Assembly: GCA_016935695.1 (NCBI GenBank)
Contig: JAFGQL010000176.1
Location: 1-45,703 of the forward strand
DNA from: Spirochaetales bacterium
Lineage (GTDB): Bacteria; Spirochaetota; Spirochaetia; JC444; Marispirochaetaceae
Reading direction: 5' to 3'
DNA: 45,703 nucleotides
The position numbers and the translations under genes were made by a program. Below, piece after piece: positions 35,835 through 45,703 of the stretch. The notes beneath the pieces are model-generated. The model was not told where the DNA came from, searched no databases, and worked only from the letters and a program-made list of their open reading frames with translations. Position 1 is the stretch's first letter. Each line of letters begins with the position of its first letter.

Positions 35835-36968
35835 ATGGAGAATCTCTTTTTCGACAATCCACTATCCCGTGAAATGCTTCTGCAGCGAAGGAGTCCACGG
35901 CGCGAGGATGTCCGCGGTGCCTATTTCAGGGATGCAACTGCGATTCTTCATTCTTTTCCATTCCGGCGCCTGAAACACAAGACCCAGGTATTCTTTGCAC
36001 CGGAAAATGACCACATCTGCACCCGGATAGAACATGTGTTACATGTATCTACCATCGCGACCACCATCTGTAAAGCCCTTGGGCTGGATTCTGAACTGGC
36101 CTGGGCAATAGGTCTCGGCCATGACCTTGGACATACTCCTTTCGGCCATGTGGGAGAGAACATTGTGGAAAAACTTGTTCCAGGTAAGGACGGGTTTGCC
36201 CATGAAATGTACTCTCTCAGGGTAGTGGATCATTTGATTGGCTACGGCAAGGGGCTGAATCTTACCTATGCGGTCAGGGACGGTATCGTTAATCATTGCG
36301 GCGAGAAATTTGAGCAGCTTATAGAGCCTGCGTTCCATATCCGCAATCTGAGTACTATAAAAAAACGGGACCAGTATCCTGCAACCTGGGAAGGCTGCGT
36401 CGTACGGATGTCCGATAAAATTGCCTATCTTGGCCGCGACCTGGAAGACGCGCTCCAGCTCAAGATAATTACAGAAAAGGATGTTCCGCCCCAGTTAATC
36501 AAGCTGCTCGGCAGGGAAAACGGAGCAATCATCGATACCCTGGTTTCGGATATCATTCAACATAGCCTGCGTATCGGGAAGATCGGATTTAGTGATGAAA
36601 TTTATCAGGGAATAATTGATCTGAAGGATTTCAATTACCGGATGATCTACAATAATGAGCGTCTTGTTAATTACCATTCTTATTTTGAACGTATACTCAC
36701 CACTTTATATACCTACCTGGACGGGCTTTTTGTAAAATACGGGAATGACAAAAAAGGGTATAAGAGCGAACAGAATATACTTGCGTTGCGGTTTTACGAT
36801 TATATGGAGAAGATGTCGCGTTTTTACCGGGAAGTAGACGGATCTTTCGATCTTCTGGTTATTGATTATCTTGCCGGAATGACGGACGACTATGCGATTA
36901 AATCCGTACAGGAATTAATGGTACCAAGGCGATTTGAAAGCCAGTTTCACGATCTCATATTTGAGTAA
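35835..36968 (+). CDS. dgt: Deoxyguanosinetriphosphate triphosphohydrolase-like HD protein
   Basis: 377 residues. dGTPases hydrolyse dNTPs to nucleoside and triphosphate, balancing dNTP pools. The opening RSPRREDVRGAYFRDATAIL is followed by FPFRRLKHKTQVF. The HD metal site is made of His67 (RIEHVLHV), His96/Asp97 (GHDLGH) and a downstream Asp in RMSDKIAYLGRD. No N- or C-terminal extra domain is seen. AGGA ten bases before the ATG fits. TTGACA at 35800-35805 is a perfect -35 without a convincing -10. Its closeness to the ribonucleotide reductase operon is functionally suggestive. Confidence 0.85.
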   Translation: MENLFFDNPLSREMLLQRRSPRREDVRGAYFRDATAILHSFPFRRLKHKTQVFFAPENDHICTRIEHVLHVSTIATTICKALGLDSELAWAIGLGHDLGHTPFGHVGENIVEKLVPGKDGFAHEMYSLRVVDHLIGYGKGLNLTYAVRDGIVNHCGEKFEQLIEPAFHIRNLSTIKKRDQYPATWEGCVVRMSDKIAYLGRDLEDALQLKIITEKDVPPQLIKLLGRENGAIIDTLVSDIIQHSLRIGKIGFSDEIYQGIIDLKDFNYRMIYNNERLVNYHSYFERILTTLYTYLDGLFVKYGNDKKGYKSEQNILALRFYDYMEKMSRFYREVDGSFDLLVIDYLAGMTDDYAIKSVQELMVPRRFESQFHDLIFE

Positions 36969-37385: not shown

Positions 37386-38072
37386 TTATGCAAGAACGGC
37401 AGGTATTCCCGTGGTTTTACACACTTCCATGATATTGTTCATATACTCAGGAGATGTATCACCATTAAAATTTTCTTGCAGGGTGTTTCCCGGCACATAA
37501 GGGGTCAACCGGTACGACATGCAGCCTTTTATGAGCCTGCATATTTCCCTCACATCTGATATATCGACAATTTCCCTGGCCAGGGTCGTACGGAACTGAT
37601 GGGGAATTCCCGATGACAGGATATATGCAATGGATTCATTTATTTTTTCAGCCATATCATTCATTGGCGGCAAACCGTCGGTGAGCAGTTGTGAATACCG
37701 GCAGGGGCTGGTTTTTACATCCATGGCTATGAAACTCAGATTATTCAGCTTTTTGAGTACATCAGGGCGTAGTCCGTTGGTATCCAGTTTTACCTTGAGT
37801 CCAAAGGATACGGCCATATCAATCAGTTCCTGCAGCCATGGATGGATTGTGGGTTCTCCGCCGGTGATGACAACCCCGTCTAGTACACCGGCCCGCTTTT
37901 TAAGGAAAGCCCGGACTTCTTCCAGGGATAAGCCGTCCTCCGGAACAAGCCCGCGGGCAAGTTCCGGGTTATGGCAGTAGGGGCATCTAAGGTTGCAGCC
38001 GCTTAAGAACAAAACCGTGCTTACATGTTCCGGGTAGTCAATGAGGCTTGTTTTAATAATCCCCAGTTTCAT
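37386..38072 (-). CDS. nrdG: Anaerobic ribonucleotide reductase activating protein (radical SAM)
   Basis: 228 residues. NrdG uses S-adenosylmethionine and a [4Fe-4S] cluster to form the glycyl radical of the class III reductase. The cluster motif is CNLRCPYC with Cys26, Cys30 and Cys33, and TGGEPT follows. It also has MDVKTSPCRY, and is of the pyruvate-formate-lyase activase-like length. The start overlaps the stop of the thioredoxin-like gene by four bases (ATGA), so translation is coupled. The target glycine here would be on that neighbour protein rather than on NrdD itself. Confidence 0.93.
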   Translation of the reverse strand: MKLGIIKTSLIDYPEHVSTVLFLSGCNLRCPYCHNPELARGLVPEDGLSLEEVRAFLKKRAGVLDGVVITGGEPTIHPWLQELIDMAVSFGLKVKLDTNGLRPDVLKKLNNLSFIAMDVKTSPCRYSQLLTDGLPPMNDMAEKINESIAYILSSGIPHQFRTTLAREIVDISDVREICRLIKGCMSYRLTPYVPGNTLQENFNGDTSPEYMNNIMEVCKTTGIPAVLA

Positions 38073-38581
38073 CGGATGGGGCTGAGGGCTTCTCTTTGGG
38101 GCAGGTCTTTAGGCTGGCTTGCTCTTACAACCTCTTTGCCATGCTCATCGATAAAGATAACCGTCGGCGCGGCCATGATGGAATATTCTTCCGCAAGGCG
38201 GTAACCTTCATCGGTGTCTACATCTACCCAGGTGCCTTGCATGTCAAATGAACCGATAGCCTCTTTCATGGGAGGGCAGTTGGGACAGGTTTGGCGGTAG
38301 AAAAACATATACGATGCAATGTCACGTGTATGTGTTTCTTCCTCGCTGAGGGTGAGTTCGCCTTGAAGGGGCTCTGAAGGTACTGCTTCCTGCATGGTAT
38401 TCGCATAGGATGAGTTGTAGTACTGCCGGTAATTGTATTCTTCACGCTTACCCTTGTTCCAGTTATTTAAGGACCGATAGTACCCCACAATGCGGGAATA
38501 TACCTCGGTAGGCGTACCGTTTACCCTTTGGCGCTCTTCACGGAGCTCTTCAAGTCTTTTGTCAATCTCCTGTACTGTCAT
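38069..38581 (-). CDS. Thioredoxin-like protein carrying the class III reductase glycyl-radical loop
   Basis: 170 residues. Residues 1-22 form a charged helix. Residues 25-54 (TEVYSRIVGYYRSLNNWNKG, then KREEYNYR) match the C-terminal radical loop of NrdD proteins, with candidate radical Gly33 in RIVGY. A linker (about 56-86) leads to a thioredoxin-like domain (about 87-165) with the active site CPNC (Cys99, Cys102), and the cis-proline loop APT (Pro139). Start: ATG 38581, overlapping nrdD by four bases, with GGGAGG six bases upstream. Since the NrdD gene lacks this loop, the protein looks like a separate radical subunit bearing its own disulfide reductant. I know of no named family with this layout. 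Confidence 0.82.
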   Translation of the reverse strand: MTVQEIDKRLEELREERQRVNGTPTEVYSRIVGYYRSLNNWNKGKREEYNYRQYYNSSYANTMQEAVPSEPLQGELTLSEEETHTRDIASYMFFYRQTCPNCPPMKEAIGSFDMQGTWVDVDTDEGYRLAEEYSIMAAPTVIFIDEHGKEVVRASQPKDLPQREALSPIR

Positions 38582-40680
38582 TCATTTCCTCCCAGTAATA
38601 AAAGCTTTTTTTGTTCAAGATGTTCAATTTCCCTGTCAAGATCGTGCTCCCGTTCCTTCCTGCATTGGGGACACTCAAATACTTCTCCGTTCAGATAGCC
38701 GTGAATCGGACAGATGGAAAAGGTCGGCGAAATGGTAAAATAGGGCAGACGGTAATTATAGGCGATGCTCTTTACCAGATTACGGCAGCTTTTCCATTCA
38801 TTGATGGCCTCGCCCAGGTATCCGTGAAACACTGTCCCGCCGGTATAGAGGGTTTGCAGCTCGTCCTGATGGTCCAGTGCCTCAAAAATATCCTGGGTAA
38901 ACTGGACAGGAAGCTGGCTTGAGTTGGTATAGTAAGGATCTTCGCTGCCGCCGGTAATAATGCTGGGGTAGTGGGCTTTATCGTGGCGGGCAAGCCGGTA
39001 TGAAGTGCTTTCGGCGGGGGTTGCTTCAAGATTGAAGAGATCACCGGTTTTCTCCTGATAATCGGCCAGCCTGTCCCTCATGTGAGTCAGTATCTTTACC
39101 GCGAAATCCTTGCCCTGTTTTGAAATGATATCCGTTTTCATGAAATTCTGAAGGCACTCATTCATGCCGCAGATGCCAATTGTGGAAAAGTGGTTGTTAA
39201 GGTGTTTAAGATAGCGTTTTGTGTAAGGGAAAAGACCTGCATCCAGCAGTCTGTTTACTACTTTTCTTTTAATTACCAGTGATTCAGCTGCAATGTCCAT
39301 CAGGTAGTTCAGGCGGCTGAAAAACTCAGCTTCGGACTGGGATAGGTAGCCAATGCGGGGCAGGTTGATGGTGACGACACCGATGGATCCGGTAAACTCA
39401 TCGCTGCCGAAAAGGCCGCCTCCGCGTTTCCGTAATTCCCGTTTGTCCAGCTGCAGACGGCAGCACATGGAGCGGACATCACCGGGATTCAAATCGGAAT
39501 TGATGAAATTCTGGAAATACGGGGTTCCGTATTTGGCCGTCATTTCGAAAAGAAGCCGTGCGTTATCCGAATCCCAGTTAAAGTCCTTGGTGATGTTATA
39601 CGTAGGAATGGGGTACTGAAAACCACGGCCCGATGCATCGCCTTCGAGCATAAGTTCAATGAAGGCTTTGTTAATGATATCCATTTCTTCCTGGCATTCG
39701 CCGTAGGTGAAACTCTGTTCTTTTCCGCCGACCAGGGCCTTACGGTCTGCAAGGTCGGAAGGTACCATCCAATCAAGGGTGATATTCGTGAAGGGTGCCT
39801 GGCTTCCCCATCTGGACGGAGTATTGACCCCGAAGACAAAGCTCTGGATATACTGTTTTACCTGTTTGTACGACAGGGCATCGATCTTTACAAAGGGAGC
39901 TAAATAGGTATCGAAACTGGACAATGCCTGGGCACCGGCCCATTCATTCTGCATGATGCCGAGGAAATTCACGATTTGCTGTATCAGGGTGGAAAGGTGT
40001 TTCGCCGGTGTACTGGTAATTTTATCGGGGACGCCGCCCAGACCTTCCTCTATTAACTGACGAAGAGACCAGCCGGCACAGTAGCCGGAAAACATGGAAA
40101 GGTCATGAATGTGGAAATCTGCATTCCTGTGGGCATTGGCGATTTCATCTGTATAAATGTTTTTAAGCCAGTAGTTTGCGGTAATGGTACCCGAATTATG
40201 AAGTATCAGACCGCCGAGAGAAAAGTTCACATTGGCATTTTCATTCACCCGCCAGTCAGTCTGCAGCAGGTAACCGTCCATTGTCTGATTAATATTCAGC
40301 ATGAGCTTGCGGGTGTCACGCATCATTTCGTGGCTGGCCCGGTAAAGTATGAAGGCCTTTGCTGTGGCCGCGTCGCCGGATTCAATAAGGACTGTTTCTA
40401 TGATATCCTGTATTTCTTCTACTGCAGGAGCGGAGTTCGGGTGGCGTTTGACCATTATCTGGGTGATTCTTTCTTCTACTAAAAGGGTGAGTTCTTCGGT
40501 CAGATCGGGATTCTGTACTCCTGTCGCCGCTTCCATTGCTCTCCCGATAGCCGATGCAATTTTCCAGCGGTCGTATTCCTGAAGGGTACCGTCCCTTTTG
40601 ATTATTTTGCGTAAAGGCCGCGAAGCCGGTTTACGGATTTCCAAAAACTCCTGCCAGTCGTTGGATGACCGATCAGACAT
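38578..40680 (-). CDS. nrdD: Class III ribonucleotide reductase large subunit lacking its glycyl-radical loop
   Basis: 700 residues. It makes dNTPs from NTPs without oxygen. An ATP-cone (about 22-118, IIKRDGTLQEYDRWKIASAI) is followed by the barrel with Cys201 (GYCAGW), the finger loop RSMCCRLQLD (Cys406/Cys407), GSIGVVTINLPRIGY and ICGMNECL. The zinc ligands are Cys657, His660, Cys670 and Cys673 (SICPIHGY, ECPQC). After Cys673 come 27 charged helical residues (REIEHLEQKKLLLLGG) and the stop. The usual TEVYSR-VGY radical loop is missing and is found in the next gene. The ATG at 40680 has GGAGGG close upstream. It is 13 bases from nrdR, so probably co-transcribed. Confidence 0.93.
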   Translation of the reverse strand: MSDRSSNDWQEFLEIRKPASRPLRKIIKRDGTLQEYDRWKIASAIGRAMEAATGVQNPDLTEELTLLVEERITQIMVKRHPNSAPAVEEIQDIIETVLIESGDAATAKAFILYRASHEMMRDTRKLMLNINQTMDGYLLQTDWRVNENANVNFSLGGLILHNSGTITANYWLKNIYTDEIANAHRNADFHIHDLSMFSGYCAGWSLRQLIEEGLGGVPDKITSTPAKHLSTLIQQIVNFLGIMQNEWAGAQALSSFDTYLAPFVKIDALSYKQVKQYIQSFVFGVNTPSRWGSQAPFTNITLDWMVPSDLADRKALVGGKEQSFTYGECQEEMDIINKAFIELMLEGDASGRGFQYPIPTYNITKDFNWDSDNARLLFEMTAKYGTPYFQNFINSDLNPGDVRSMCCRLQLDKRELRKRGGGLFGSDEFTGSIGVVTINLPRIGYLSQSEAEFFSRLNYLMDIAAESLVIKRKVVNRLLDAGLFPYTKRYLKHLNNHFSTIGICGMNECLQNFMKTDIISKQGKDFAVKILTHMRDRLADYQEKTGDLFNLEATPAESTSYRLARHDKAHYPSIITGGSEDPYYTNSSQLPVQFTQDIFEALDHQDELQTLYTGGTVFHGYLGEAINEWKSCRNLVKSIAYNYRLPYFTISPTFSICPIHGYLNGEVFECPQCRKEREHDLDREIEHLEQKKLLLLGGNE

Positions 40681-40693
40681 ACATCCCTCCAGT

Positions 40694-41161
40694 TCACATA
40701 GTGTTGTGTTTGGTGAGTTTTTCAATTTCACGAATAAACTCATCTACATTATTAAACATTCTATATACAGAAGCGAAGCGTACATAAGCTACCCTGTCGA
40801 TCTGAAACAGTTTCGAAAGTACCAGATCTCCAAGCTCTTCTGCACGCACTTCTCTGTTATTGGTGGAAAGAATAACTGCTTCGTCTTCTATCTGGTGAAT
40901 AAGCTCTTCTATTTGCTGCTGACTGACCGGACGTTTCTGAAGGCTCCGCTGAATGCCCCGTTCCAGTTTCTCAAGGCTGAATGCTTCGCGTCTGCCGTCG
41001 CGCTTTACTACCATGAGGGGTTTTTCTTCAATTTTTTCATAGGAAGTAAAACGATATCCGCATCCGAGGCATTCCCGCCTGCGGCGTATGCTGGTGCCGC
41101 TTGCGTTTTGCCGCGATTCCACAACTTTGTCTTCAATTTCCCCACAATGCGGACATCGCAT
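40694..41161 (-). CDS. nrdR: Transcriptional repressor NrdR
   Basis: 155 residues. NrdR senses dATP/ATP through its ATP-cone and represses ribonucleotide reductase genes. The zinc ribbon is Cys3, Cys6, Cys31 and Cys34 (CPHCG and CLGCG). The sequence RQNASGTSIRRRREC is diagnostic, and the ATP-cone starts about residue 49 (MVVKRDGRREAFSLEKLERG). It heads the nrdR-nrdD-thioredoxin-nrdG operon. Two NrdR-box-like sites lie in its own upstream region, so autoregulation of the whole operon is likely. Confidence 0.96.
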   Translation of the reverse strand: MRCPHCGEIEDKVVESRQNASGTSIRRRRECLGCGYRFTSYEKIEEKPLMVVKRDGRREAFSLEKLERGIQRSLQKRPVSQQQIEELIHQIEDEAVILSTNNREVRAEELGDLVLSKLFQIDRVAYVRFASVYRMFNNVDEFIREIEKLTKHNTM

Positions 41162-41322: not shown

Positions 41323-41922
41323 ATGGATATGGAACATGTAAGTCTTTCCCAGCTAAGAAAAACGGTCATAGAGAAACTAAAATACCATTATGCCCATGGA
41401 AATTTGGAAGATGAAGAGTTCGAGCGGATGCTCGGCGAAGCAACCAACGCCGAAACGAAAGACGCCCTTGTTCCAATACATAAAATGCTTTCACCGGTAC
41501 CGGAAGAAGACACCGACTCGAAAAAAACATCTGCAGCATCATCGAGTGTAACAAGAAAATCCTACGGCACCTTTATGAGTATCCTCGGGGGAACTGAACG
41601 CCGAGGGATCTGGAATGTTCCAAAAAGAAACAGGTGCATCAATATACTGGGAGGGACGGAACTCAACCTTACCCAGTGTGAACTCAACAACGAAGATACG
41701 GTATTTGAAGTGGTATGTATCCTTGGCGGCATGGAAATAATCGTTCCCGATAATGTCAATGTGGTAGTGGAAAGCATCCCCATTCTGGGAGGGATCGAAG
41801 ACTCAACTCAGTCCCATTCAGTCAACGGCCCGACAATAATTATCCGCGGGATAGTCGCTTTAGGAGGTATTGAAATACGCCAGCTCACTAAGCGTGAACG
41901 AAGGAAACTGAAACGCTATTGA
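41323..41922 (+). CDS. DUF1707/LiaF C-terminal-like cytoplasmic protein
   Basis: 199 residues with no membrane segment. Residues about 5-50 (LSQLRKTVIEKLKYHYAHGN, LEDEEFERMLG) resemble the short helical DUF1707/SHOCT-like motif. Residues about 85-180 contain three or four repeats of an ILGGTE/ILGGIE strand unit (SILGGTERRGIW, NILGGTELNLTQ, CILGGMEIIVP, ILGGIEDST), characteristic of the soluble C-terminal domain of LiaF, the cell-wall stress regulator. The ATG at 41323 is supported by AGGAAG; an upstream frame to 41101 was rejected. It is divergent from nrdR and overlaps the end of the Lhr gene by seven bases. Confidence 0.72.
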   Translation: MDMEHVSLSQLRKTVIEKLKYHYAHGNLEDEEFERMLGEATNAETKDALVPIHKMLSPVPEEDTDSKKTSAASSSVTRKSYGTFMSILGGTERRGIWNVPKRNRCINILGGTELNLTQCELNNEDTVFEVVCILGGMEIIVPDNVNVVVESIPILGGIEDSTQSHSVNGPTIIIRGIVALGGIEIRQLTKRERRKLKRY

Positions 41923-44900
41923 CCAGGGCGGCCGGCAAAGCTGTACGTATCAAAGCGTATACCGCTGCGTGTTTCGATCCCGCCGAGTGTTGCCAGGGGC
42001 GCTTTAAGGGCATGGTTTCTGACCGGTTCACTATCTATGGTGTCAATCTTTATTTCGTTCAACGGCATGGCAGACAGCAGACCTGGTATCACGGATAATG
42101 TATCCTCTGTTAGGCCGGTTATACGCTTTTGGGTATGGTAGTAACATATATAGCAACCGGTACCGGTAAGTGCATAGTAAAAGGGGGATTTCAGTCCGCT
42201 GTCATCCTGCTGACGGTTTACACTGAGGGGCTCACGGGAATAACCGTATAAAATATCACTGTTATCCTGTGTTTTTTGCAAAAACCCCAGAAACGCCCTG
42301 TTTGTATACTGACGGCAGTCCATCCCTGTTATGAAACGACCGCTTACAATTTCTCCCGACAGTTCCAAAAGTCGAAGCACACGATACAGGGAAGATATTT
42401 TCAATCCTTTCATTTCTCCTGACAGAATGTCTCTCGACAGTATACCGTAGCGTTTCATCAGGTCCCGTACGCGTTGCTTTTCCTCTTCCAGTTCCTCTAT
42501 TGTATCCGGGTCAAAGACCTCGGACGGAGGAATCCTGAACCAGTTGCCCTCTATGAGCCTGTTCTGTTTCCAATCCTGGTACCTTACACGTTCTTTTTCT
42601 TCAAACAGATCTGTTTTTGCAGAAAGCAGCGTAGCTATACCGGCAAGGGAATCGCAGGAGATGTTTCCCTTGATAAATTCTTTTTTCATTGTTTTCGCCA
42701 ATTCGGCTAAGGAGAGACGGGATATCTCTTTCAGTTCCCAGAACGAATATGATCCTATCTCAGGAACCACGGAAGAACCTGATCGTGTCAGTTCCGCGGT
42801 AAGACCGTTCCCGGGTTCGATAAACATCAGTTTATTCTGGTAAAACAATGGAAAAAGCAGCCGGTCCTTATGTAAGGACTCAAATGTTTTGCGTTCAGCA
42901 CTGTTAAGACGTCGTGAAATGATCAGATCCTGCCACACCTCCAGAGGCAGGGGAATATAGAGAAATGTTCGGATTTTCTGCACAGATTCAAGGTTGCTTT
43001 CAAACCGGAGGCGAAGAGCGCGTTCGTATTCCCATGGCTGAACCTGTATATTCTCTGACGTGTAACGGCGGTAGCGAAGGAGTTTTTCCAGATTATCAAC
43101 CAGGATAAGCTGTGGATCAGGTTCATCATTTATAAGGGCGCCATGGATAATCTGGTCGTCTTTTTCGCTCAGATTTTTCGCGGTGGTTTCCAGCCAGCAA
43201 AGGTCAAAACCGTATAACCGGGCAAGCCGTTGAATGGTAACAGGTCCGTAAAATGAGAGGATGTACTTCAGAAACATGGTGTCCTCCGGCTGCTCCTGGG
43301 GAGGAGGAATCAGCTTTTGGGTAACTCCATTTCCGGAAAGACAAGTAATGTGCGCCTCTTTTGGGTTTTTTCCGAAGAGCTGACACAGAAGGGCCGCGCC
43401 CCGTGCTGTTGTTATCCCTGCGGCAAAGGATGACTGAAGCCTCAGTATTCCATCCTGTGAAGCGGGATCTTCAGGATAGAAGTGTGTAAGAAGCTTCCAC
43501 TCTTCTTCGGGAATAATGATACGGTCGTCGATATAGCGCAAAAGCGCTATGCCGCTGGATGGGCAATATTCTTCGGTAAGGTATTTCAGTTTTGCTTCAA
43601 AATCTGCAAGAATTGATGCTTGAATGGAGAGTTTTCCGGTTTTAGTAAGAGCGCGGAAATACTCAAGAGAGATGGAAGAAGAAGGACTGAGATGAGCCGG
43701 CGTGTCATCGGCATACATCAGAACGTTTGTCATTCTAAAAATGGAATCGTCACACAGCGCGGATGGATGTGTGGTACGGATGATTACTTCTTTACGTTCT
43801 CCTGAACTGACAGATTCCAGAAATGCGAGAGCCCCGTCGCAGTCAAGAACATCCTCTATCAGTTCCCGCCAGGTTTCGCGGACAACCGGATTATCTTTGT
43901 AGGGCTTCATTTTGCCATAGAATTCCTTTATTTTTGCTCTGTTTATCCACAAGGGCAGCCGTTTCCTGAATCCGGCGCTGGGTAAAAGAAGGAAACGGTT
44001 TGCAATTTCACGGAAATGTGCACCAAAAATTCCGGAGTTTTCGAGACTGTCATAGATGTTGGAGGGAAAACCGTTTGTGAGGGCGGAAAAACTGAAGTCT
44101 AAGGTGTCAAAACTCAAGATGAGGATCTGCCGGTTATTACTGAAAACCTGGGCGTGTATGCCGTTTTTCTGAAAATACCCCTGTATCGCGTAATGAAGGG
44201 CTTTATTGATCTTTCCTCCAAGAAAGGTGTGAAGGAACAGGTATGTATATTGAGATCCGGAAGACGGATGGGCTGTCTGCTCAAAATAGACGGTATTCTC
44301 CTCGAACAAAAAACCCTGCCGCAGGAATGAACCCCTCAGAGACAGCGCATCAGTCTTTTGAGATGATGAACACAGATCAGCGGATAGTGCTTCGAGTAGT
44401 TTATGTGAAGAAAGGGCAGGAGAAACAACCTCTTCGGCTTTCCAGAAGACCGTGGAATTTTCCCTTCCTTTCCATGGTTTGACGGTGACCGAATGGGCAT
44501 CTATATTCTGAATTTTCCAGGTACGGTTGCCAAAAACAAAGACATCTCCGCGTCTTCGTTCCCAGACAAATTCTTCGTCAAGTTCCCCTATATTCAGACG
44601 GTCTTCGGTTTTCATGGTAAAATAACCGCGGTCAGGAATGGTCCCGCTGCCTGCATAAAACGCAAGGCGTGTACCGTCTCTTGGTGAAATGACATCAGCA
44701 TCTCTGTCCCAGTCTAATCGTTTGACAGTCTCCTTTACCGGCAGCCCTCTGAAGGTTCCTGAAAGAATTCCTAAAAGCTGTAAATAATCTTCATAGTCAA
44801 GATCCCGGTACGGGTAGCTCTGGCTTAGTGTGTCAAACACTTCCCGGGCTTGTCGCGGACCTGAGAGTACCGAGGAAATGACAAGCTGGCTTAAAACATC

Positions 44901-45703
44901 CAGCGGTGCTTTTGGCAGCAGAAGGTTTTCCAATTCATTCTTGTCCAGGGCGTCAAGGTAACCCTGAAACTGATATACCTCAAGATCAGAGAGGGGAAGA
45001 CAGATTCCGCGGCTCACTGCCCCGACTTGATGCCCGGCTCTTCCCAGCTTTTGTATGAAGGATGATACGGTAAAGGGCGGCTGGACAAAAATGACCTGTT
45101 CAATATGTCCGATGTCAATACCGAGTTCGAGGGAATTTGTGGCAACTATGGCCTTGAGCTTACCAGTCCGCATCTGATATTCAACGTTTTTTCGCAGGCT
45201 TTTGGACAATGAACCATGGTGTGCATAGGCTACTGGGGATTTTTGCCCCGTATTCAGGGAACGTGAAAGGGTTTCACTCATTTTCCGGGAATTTACGAAT
45301 ATGAGAGAGGTCCTCTTTTCTGTAAGATACGGTATGATGCATGAAGCCACATGCTGCCAATAAAGGTCGCCGTAAGATCCTGGTGCGTATGACGGTGGCA
45401 AAATGGAAACATCGTACTTTTTTTGAATTGAAGATCGTATGAGGCGGACCGGGCGCGGTGAAAGGTTTCCCTTACCGTCGCGCAGGTACCCGCCAAGAAA
45501 GGCACATATCTTCTCTGCCGGATGAACCGTGGCAGAAAGGCCTATACGGGTAAACTCGCCTGCTGTTTTGCAAAGATATTCAAGGGATGCTGCAAGAACA
45601 GTGCCCCGTTTGTTTTCTGCGATGCTGTGTATTTCGTCGACGATAACACAGCGTATTCCTGATAAGAGATTGCGACCCTTTTCCTGGCTCAATAATAGAA
45701 AAA
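41916..45703 (-). CDS. lhr: Lhr-type large helicase, 5' end outside window
   Basis: About 1262 codons are visible, open to the right edge of the window; the N-terminus (motif I) lies beyond. Lhr is a superfamily 2 helicase of DNA repair. Motif II is VIVDEIHSIAENKRG, motif III IGLSATVHP, and motifs V and VI are VATNSLELGIDIGHIEQVIF and QKLGRAGHQVG. The core is followed by the winged-helix and beta-barrel parts, and a long C-terminal region of about 700 residues typical of Lhr-extended proteins (for example GPVTIQRLARLYGFDL). It overlaps the LiaF-like gene by seven bases at its end, so both transcripts converge without a terminator between them. Confidence 0.92.
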   Translation of the reverse strand, partial: FLLLSQEKGRNLLSGIRCVIVDEIHSIAENKRGTVLAASLEYLCKTAGEFTRIGLSATVHPAEKICAFLGGYLRDGKGNLSPRPVRLIRSSIQKKYDVSILPPSYAPGSYGDLYWQHVASCIIPYLTEKRTSLIFVNSRKMSETLSRSLNTGQKSPVAYAHHGSLSKSLRKNVEYQMRTGKLKAIVATNSLELGIDIGHIEQVIFVQPPFTVSSFIQKLGRAGHQVGAVSRGICLPLSDLEVYQFQGYLDALDKNELENLLLPKAPLDVLSQLVISSVLSGPRQAREVFDTLSQSYPYRDLDYEDYLQLLGILSGTFRGLPVKETVKRLDWDRDADVISPRDGTRLAFYAGSGTIPDRGYFTMKTEDRLNIGELDEEFVWERRRGDVFVFGNRTWKIQNIDAHSVTVKPWKGRENSTVFWKAEEVVSPALSSHKLLEALSADLCSSSQKTDALSLRGSFLRQGFLFEENTVYFEQTAHPSSGSQYTYLFLHTFLGGKINKALHYAIQGYFQKNGIHAQVFSNNRQILILSFDTLDFSFSALTNGFPSNIYDSLENSGIFGAHFREIANRFLLLPSAGFRKRLPLWINRAKIKEFYGKMKPYKDNPVVRETWRELIEDVLDCDGALAFLESVSSGERKEVIIRTTHPSALCDDSIFRMTNVLMYADDTPAHLSPSSSISLEYFRALTKTGKLSIQASILADFEAKLKYLTEEYCPSSGIALLRYIDDRIIIPEEEWKLLTHFYPEDPASQDGILRLQSSFAAGITTARGAALLCQLFGKNPKEAHITCLSGNGVTQKLIPPPQEQPEDTMFLKYILSFYGPVTIQRLARLYGFDLCWLETTAKNLSEKDDQIIHGALINDEPDPQLILVDNLEKLLRYRRYTSENIQVQPWEYERALRLRFESNLESVQKIRTFLYIPLPLEVWQDLIISRRLNSAERKTFESLHKDRLLFPLFYQNKLMFIEPGNGLTAELTRSGSSVVPEIGSYSFWELKEISRLSLAELAKTMKKEFIKGNISCDSLAGIATLLSAKTDLFEEKERVRYQDWKQNRLIEGNWFRIPPSEVFDPDTIEELEEEKQRVRDLMKRYGILSRDILSGEMKGLKISSLYRVLRLLELSGEIVSGRFITGMDCRQYTNRAFLGFLQKTQDNSDILYGYSREPLSVNRQQDDSGLKSPFYYALTGTGCYICYYHTQKRITGLTEDTLSVIPGLLSAMPLNEIKIDTIDSEPVRNHALKAPLATLGGIETRSGIRFDTYSFAGRPGQ

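Follow-up and report, generated by a model that had tools for sequence, protein, structure and literature searches.

The nrd gene cluster examined in this study lies on a 45,703-nucleotide stretch of DNA (the window; contig JAFGQL010000176.1 of assembly GCA_016935695.1) from the metagenome-assembled genome (MAG) of a Spirochaetales bacterium of the family Marispirochaetaceae. The cluster very probably encodes a class III ribonucleotide reductase (RNR) made of two subunits, a 700-residue NrdD catalytic core and a 170-residue protein that carries the radical glycine together with a tethered thioredoxin. To our knowledge, the radical glycine is part of the catalytic polypeptide in every class III RNR studied to date. 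The splitting of NrdD is real, more than a chance event and no artefact, and the system is most likely a variant of class III RNR with its radical loop on a thioredoxin-carrying second chain. On the minus strand the genes are ordered nrdR, nrdD, the small gene and nrdG.

Catalytic core without a radical loop

The nrdD gene (38578-40680, minus strand) starts at an ATG at position 40680 and encodes 700 residues up to a stop at 38578-38580; an in-frame upstream ATG at 40743 would give 721 residues. The product matches PRK08270 with 1092.9 bits over positions 3-652 of 684 and contains an ATP-cone, the barrel-forming NRDD catalytic domain, finger-loop cysteines and the cysteine of strand betaA. The Pfam NRDD model has 562 positions, of which 1-532 are found in nrdD (E 2.2e-178), and the last 31 positions (532-562) are matched by residues 24-55 of the next open reading frame (ORF) (E 5.3e-7, 29.1 bits, cut-off 26.2). 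A whole-genome search of the source MAG returned the same two pieces. A C-terminal sequence pattern, Cys657/His660/Cys670/Cys673 (38662-38712), indicates a putative zinc site, and the chain ends 27 residues past Cys673. The initial annotation, whose residue numbering for the zinc ligands and finger loop is right, had stated that this polypeptide contains no glycyl-radical loop, and this was borne out; the features expected of a class III enzyme are provided only by the two chains together.

The active-site residues bear on the choice of reductant. The finger loop Met405-Cys406-Cys407 (39460-39468) is part of an RSMCCRL motif present in all 144 NrdD cores compared, and Cys201 (40078-40080) occupies the betaA position in an SGYCAGW motif. 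Glu552 in NLEATPAE aligns with NIEQVPAE of Thermotoga maritima, and by this alignment it may be the glutamate that defines NrdD2. According to section 2.5 of PMC9669993, the betaA cysteine takes part in the disulfide that forms at the active site of NrdD enzymes relying on thioredoxin, and NrdD of the double-cysteine type may use thioredoxin, formate or both. Cys201 and Met405-Cys406-Cys407 appear to fit the thioredoxin-or-formate type (NrdD2, with its third cysteine and glutamate).

Radical-loop/thioredoxin subunit

The small gene (38069-38581, minus strand) encodes 170 residues from its own ATG, preceded at 6 nucleotides by a GGGAGG ribosome-binding site (38588-38593), and has ATGA overlaps at both ends, with nrdD and with nrdG. 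Its glycyl-radical loop domain spans residues 25-56 (38414-38509). Aligned through the fused relative L206, Gly33 (38483-38485) falls in the column of T. maritima Gly621, which a passage of PMC4493059 names as the radical site of that NrdD. Across 41 homologues 22 columns are invariant, including E26, Y28, R30-R36, W41, N42, G44, K45, E48, R52, C99, C102 and P139. The NRDD match, this alignment and the invariance agree with the earlier proposal that the loop, with Gly33 as radical residue, opens the second gene. NRDD was the only Pfam family above its cut-off, and Gly_radical, which we take to be the name of the family of the pyruvate formate-lyase C-terminus, was not among the eight families matching the small protein with E up to 1.

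The gene continues into a thioredoxin-like domain at residues 90-155 (38117-38314), again as first described, with the invariant CPNC motif at Cys99-Cys102 (38276-38287) and the invariant Pro139 at the cis-Pro position. A structural model of the small protein (mean predicted local distance difference test score, pLDDT, 83.8) comprises a helix, the loop hairpin, a second helix, a disordered linker and the thioredoxin-like domain, and its best Foldseek matches are thioredoxins (E 6.0e-5; template-modelling score 0.54 by target length). With CxxC, cis-Pro and fold all present, the C-terminal domain is predicted to have a thioredoxin fold. Searches with the small protein gave no match among plasmids at E 1e-5 and a single match among phages, to a fused form.

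A closely spaced cysteine pair occurs in the linker between loop and thioredoxin in 27 of 121 thioredoxin-bearing sequences (for example L043, L066, L112 and L125), and could be a redox relay or a metal site. A general relay of the class I/II kind was considered for this pair and dropped, given its presence in these 27 sequences only and its absence from the window.

Split NrdD in other spirochaetes

From a scan of GTDB species genomes, the loci of the best 80 of 559 relatives, closest to the query and hence not a measure of frequency, were named. All 80 are titled as spirochaetes. A loop-less nrdD lies upstream of the small gene in 72 of them, in line with the conserved co-occurrence for which the initial annotation had proposed a search; in seven no nrdD is present in the stretch, and one (L119) seems to be a piece of a fused protein cut off at the end of its contig. 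The split loci include strains of Treponema berlinense, T. lecithinolyticum, T. porcinum and T. socranskii, with cultured Treponema species among them. One record titled as a Borreliella garinii MAG (L073) carries a typical split nrdD with a loop-thioredoxin gene, and its title may be misassigned.

The initial annotation had named a fused NrdD in close relatives, or a second complete nrdD in the genome, as observations that would speak against the split. NrdD is split in all four genomes compared within the family, the source genome included. The source MAG (182 contigs, 82% complete) contains a single NRDD core and, apart from it, a single loop piece, and the whole-genome search of this 82% complete assembly revealed no second nrdD. 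In a wider set of 392 genomes, the small protein was matched in 219 and NRDD in 241.

For closer comparison, 22 genomes were hand-picked for few contigs (one to three in 21 of them) and a match to the small protein. All 22 have the core and, in a separate open frame, the loop. Only G383 encodes a further NrdD, of the fused kind; the remaining 21 do not. Three of the 22 (G334, G235 and G358; 97, 99 and 94% complete) have no PF02867 match, that is, no class I/II RNR. Since the split NrdD is thus the only RNR seen there, the enzyme probably has to work in these organisms.

A second, fused NrdD was observed beside the split one in some genomes, such as G114 and G383. Another kind of NrdD C-terminus, presumably Escherichia coli-like, was seen in L204 and L205.

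Gene linkage

In 10 of the 22 hand-picked genomes (G129, G022, G168, G034, G176, G342, G356, G371, G291 and G279), the core and loop genes are separated by at least 95 kb of the same contig. Because of this separation, frameshifting or read-through is excluded as a general mechanism of joining the two chains.

The partner that stays with the loop is nrdG. In the window this gene (37386-38072, minus strand) encodes a radical-SAM activase of NrdG2 type (TIGR02495, 159.5 bits, cut-off 131.15). In 70 of the 80 named loci it is the same-strand neighbour of the loop gene; longer overlapping frames occur in six of the others, and in four the stretch lacks nrdG. The two genes are likewise adjacent in all ten loci that were fetched from genomes with nrdD elsewhere, namely nine of the ten unlinked genomes (G176 not included) and G366, in which nrdD and the loop gene occupy separate contigs. 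G129 has the loop gene next to nrdG at one site, and nrdR and nrdD together at another. The activase gene therefore usually stays with the gene of its substrate loop, even where nrdD lies elsewhere.

Added helices at the break

Both ends created by the break carry additional sequence, as the initial annotation had noted in describing charged new helices on the two sides. In 80 helix-type splits, the NrdD tail past the last zinc cysteine has a median length of 27 residues (range 21-39), compared with a spacer of 2-14 residues, mostly 6, between zinc cysteine and loop in 32 fused sequences. Hydrophobic residues of the tail recur in a heptad-like pattern at positions 8, 12, 15 and 22, and those of the pre-loop segment, in 76 sequences, at 8, 11, 15, 18, 22 and 25 of 32. 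Both helices were seen in the split form only and are missing from the 32 fused sequences.

For one homologous pair (L065), an AlphaFold2 model was computed as if the single stop were a sense codon. The model as a whole matches NrdD structures, and most of both helices is predicted with pLDDT 92-96, falling to 66-82 at the ends. In the window the corresponding elements are the charged 27-residue NrdD C-terminus (38581-38661, minus strand), possibly one half of a coiled coil, and residues 3-18 of the small subunit (38528-38575, minus strand), its possible partner. The two helices perhaps form an intersubunit coiled-coil clamp.

Comparison with known systems

The window shares with class III NrdD/NrdG systems of the PRK08270-like NrdD2 type the ATP-cone, barrel, MCCR finger loop, betaA cysteine, zinc pattern, RIVGYYR loop motif and the nrdG and nrdR neighbours. 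It departs from them in that the loop sits on a second chain, joined to a thioredoxin-like domain, and in the two extra helices at the break. The same order of core, loop and thioredoxin is found in single-chain proteins of other spirochaete families and of a phage; unlike the window system, these are one polypeptide without the helices and with a zinc-to-loop spacer of 6 residues. The phage protein (L211), from unannotated record MT835493 from human faeces, is 61.5% identical to the window NrdD.

Splits of a simpler kind occur elsewhere. In other spirochaete families a CPxxH-type motif closes the core, and the ORF behind it carries only the loop and lacks the heptad helix; no loop ORF was seen in two fetched loci of such families (L185 and L190), the latter of which stops at a contig edge. 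Among opened plasmid records, NrdD is split in Cupriavidus necator, C. metallidurans, Bradyrhizobium, Sulfuricystis, Sulfuricurvum and Paracoccus, and fused in Acidiphilium, Actinomyces and Geoalkalibacter; in Thiothrix a small ORF is annotated and the core was matched in two pieces. A loop ORF of 57-66 residues is annotated directly ahead of nrdG in five plasmid records of Proteobacteria and Campylobacterota (L212, L213, L215, L216 and L221), and in four of them RefSeq calls this piece nrdD. The genera with an annotated small ORF are Cupriavidus, Bradyrhizobium, Sulfuricurvum, Sulfuricystis and Thiothrix. A loop-less NrdD is therefore not unique to the thioredoxin arrangement. Like the window, the plasmid systems of C. 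necator pHG1, Bradyrhizobium and Sulfuricurvum have a core without a loop and a loop ORF between nrdD and nrdG, but they lack the thioredoxin and the heptad helix and form a separate branch of the core tree.

On C. necator pHG1 (H16_RS32680/H16_RS32675) the loop is a 66-residue ORF ahead of nrdG (H16_RS32675; L212, 4509-4709). A passage of PMC2864759 reports that C. necator nrdDG is essential for complete denitrification; as nrdD there lacks the loop, this finding speaks indirectly for a split NrdD that functions in vivo. The same paper, on the C. metallidurans genome, lists NrdDG of that species as Rmet_5137 and Rmet_5139. In the sequence of that organism a separate loop ORF lies close to the core, and plausibly it is the gene skipped between the two.

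Other divided or modular enzymes are more distant. GrcA is not known to have a thioredoxin domain. In the account given in part of PMC12288474, GrcA (YfiD) is, like the small subunit, a small separate protein with the loop of a glycyl-radical enzyme; it takes the place of the portion that a damaged enzyme has lost by cleavage, whereas the NrdD partner in the window has no loop at all. The class II RNR split as NrdJa/NrdJb (part of PMC9669993) and the phage nrdD and nrdA genes interrupted by introns, inteins or homing endonucleases, with nrdD split in six cases among 128 phage genomes bearing RNR genes (part of PMC3653736), are also divided RNRs. They concern another class, interruption by mobile elements or fragmentation, and no separate radical-loop subunit is described in those parts of the sources.

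The initial annotation had suspected a new arrangement, and this holds in part. Searches of an open-access library, with most subscription papers outside its scope, gave no title or opening of an abstract that describes the NrdD radical loop as a subunit of its own, whether thioredoxin is attached or not; nor is one described in the available parts of PMC4390871, PMC9669993, PMC9531940, PMC3019208, PMC4493059, PMC2864759, PMC3653736 and PMC12288474. As far as annotation goes, a split by itself is nothing new, because loop-only splits are annotated in Proteobacteria and Campylobacterota, and the fusion to a reductant is not tied to the split, because core, loop and thioredoxin also exist as one chain.

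Origin of the split

A quick maximum-likelihood tree with a midpoint root was built for 144 cores from 178 extracted rows, after removal of duplicates, truncated cores and rows without a zinc motif or loop state; five labels were set by hand. All 82 helix-type splits fall inside one clade of 104 rows. The clade opens in a three-way fork without resolution between a fused group of 2 rows, a fused group of 13 rows and a group of 89 rows, the last consisting of the splits and seven fused rows. The two fused groups are thioredoxin-bearing throughout, except for L162. The fewest changes on the tree are 7 for the fused or split state and 5 for thioredoxin, and the approximately unbiased test does not speak against the helix-type split having arisen once (p-AU 0.36). 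With the fork and the midpoint root as they stand, the simplest reading is that thioredoxin would have joined a one-chain enzyme first and that the break between zinc site and loop came later. Some fused forms sit among the splits (L039/L040; L041, L042 and L047; L156/L206) and may be re-fusions or an artefact of weak branches. The loop-only partners of L053 and of G129-like genomes suggest a later loss of thioredoxin.

Viral radical-loop genes

A scan of viral contigs yielded 49 loci, comprising 15 fused forms, 30 separate loops (L232-L251, L253, L254, L258, L266, L268, L271, L274 and L276-L278) and four that were not classed. By a rule of thumb, 18 of the separate loops have the heptad-like helix and 12 do not. 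An NRDD core is absent from 29 of the 30 separate-loop records and present in G408; none of these 30 is rated 90% complete, they may be fragments, and several are near-duplicates. The match exceeds the Pfam cut-off in 22 of the 30, and L276-L278 look doubtful. The loop frames are 46-105 residues long in 26 of the 30, and one of the separate loops is a loop-thioredoxin protein (G395, L232). When 20 large proteins were examined in each of six records, terminase, portal, tape-measure or tail proteins were found in four (G396, G413, G403 and G395) and replication-type proteins only in the other two (G400 and G407). For three loop-only viral proteins tried, PHROGs held no family better than E 0.0029.

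The simplest reading of these sequences is that a phage may supply a radical subunit to the NrdD of its host. It is quite conceivable, though short of probable, that the radical part is an exchangeable cartridge, which hosts encode apart, here together with thioredoxin, and phages carry alone as helix and loop, in one case with thioredoxin, arming or re-arming a loop-less NrdD of the infected host without encoding NrdD themselves. A GrcA-like use would be a better fit for the phage-borne copies than for the host subunit.

Proposed mechanism and alternative explanations

From the gene structure, the conservation, the split enzyme as the only RNR seen in three genomes, the unlinked genes, the linkage to nrdG, the predicted helices and the thioredoxin fold, all read from sequence, we infer a complex of the two chains, a radical delivered in trans, a reductant role for thioredoxin and a replaceable radical subunit. 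The NrdD tail helix and the N-terminal helix of the small subunit would pair as a coiled coil and set the loop at the position that it has in fused NrdD. NrdG would generate the radical on Gly33, and the loop would enter the barrel and hand the radical to the finger-loop cysteine. At each turnover the tethered CPNC thioredoxin, in place of formate or alongside it, would reduce the disulfide between Cys201 and the finger loop. Glycyl-radical enzymes are cut at the glycine by oxygen, with autonomous cofactors standing in for the part that is lost (part of PMC12288474); as the cleavage is at the glycine, oxygen damage would here cost the cell only the small piece, replaceable at low expense.

If this mechanism is true, a free radical subunit would allow the glycyl radical to be made, isolated and swapped apart from the core, and would make radical transfer in trans testable. 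The presence of radical and reductant on one small protein may explain how thioredoxin is delivered to the class III active site. For anaerobes that have only one RNR, a radical subunit that is replaced at little cost suggests a way of living through short exposures to oxygen, and viral copies, provided that they are functional, would point to a control of host dNTP synthesis that has not been recognised before.

Several observations count against this two-subunit mechanism. Heptad position 19 of the NrdD tail is weak, and in the read-through model the loop (pLDDT about 62) is not confidently placed, the finger-loop region lies below 50 and contacts are not readable. The Pfam thioredoxin matches in the small protein stay below their curated cut-offs, which is weak sequence support for that domain, and the loop-only partners without thioredoxin in L048-L053 and in G129-like genomes indicate that thioredoxin can be dispensed with in some cases. 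Formate use has been linked to the finger-loop methionine (part of PMC9669993), which is retained in MCCR. The source MAG also has one class I/II-type RNR frame of 1120 residues, another RNR is present in 19 of the 22 hand-picked genomes, and no experiment on any such spirochaete protein was found. Some of these points lend substance to a rather unlikely alternative, in which formate is the electron donor and thioredoxin serves another step, such as reducing NrdG or protecting the radical loop: the finger-loop methionine, the loop-only relatives and the attachment of the radical-loop gene to nrdG and not to nrdD where the two are apart would all suit it. The double cysteine, with the glutamate assigned by alignment, nevertheless matches the thioredoxin-compatible type, and thioredoxin-bearing fused chains exist.

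The remaining explanations do away with a dedicated second subunit. A role like that of GrcA had been raised in the initial annotation, and the small protein could accordingly be a spare part that repairs intact NrdD after oxygen damage. The logic is that described for GrcA in part of PMC12288474, and lone loop proteins do occur on viral records; but GrcA rescues a complete enzyme, and with no intact NrdD in 21 of the 22 hand-picked genomes, and none seen in the 82% complete source genome, the likeness in role did not hold and this explanation is highly improbable. Programmed frameshifting or stop read-through, joining the ORFs into one ordinary NrdD chain, might be suspected from the short overlaps in some genomes, including the ATGA of the window, and from seven named loci in which the two ORFs share a frame with a single stop between them. 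It is even harder to accept, given distances of 55-453 nucleotides from nrdD stop to loop in the named loci, the unlinked genes, the GGGAGG and ATG of the small gene itself and helices confined to the split form; the earlier view that this is no simple frameshift is upheld. An assembly error or a dying gene, to be thought of in a MAG of 182 contigs, is scarcely credible, as the same split recurs in other assemblies, including those of cultured Treponema species, with conserved loop and CPNC residues.

Neighbouring genes

The first gene of the cluster, nrdR (40694-41161, minus strand), encodes the transcriptional regulator of RNR genes (TIGR00244, E 3.9e-53). Next to the cluster, on the plus strand, lies a gene for an HD-domain phosphohydrolase with HD_assoc (35835-36968), presumably dGTPase-like, which is perhaps another enzyme of the dNTP pool. 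A large Lhr-type helicase is encoded close to the edge of the window (41916-45692, minus strand).

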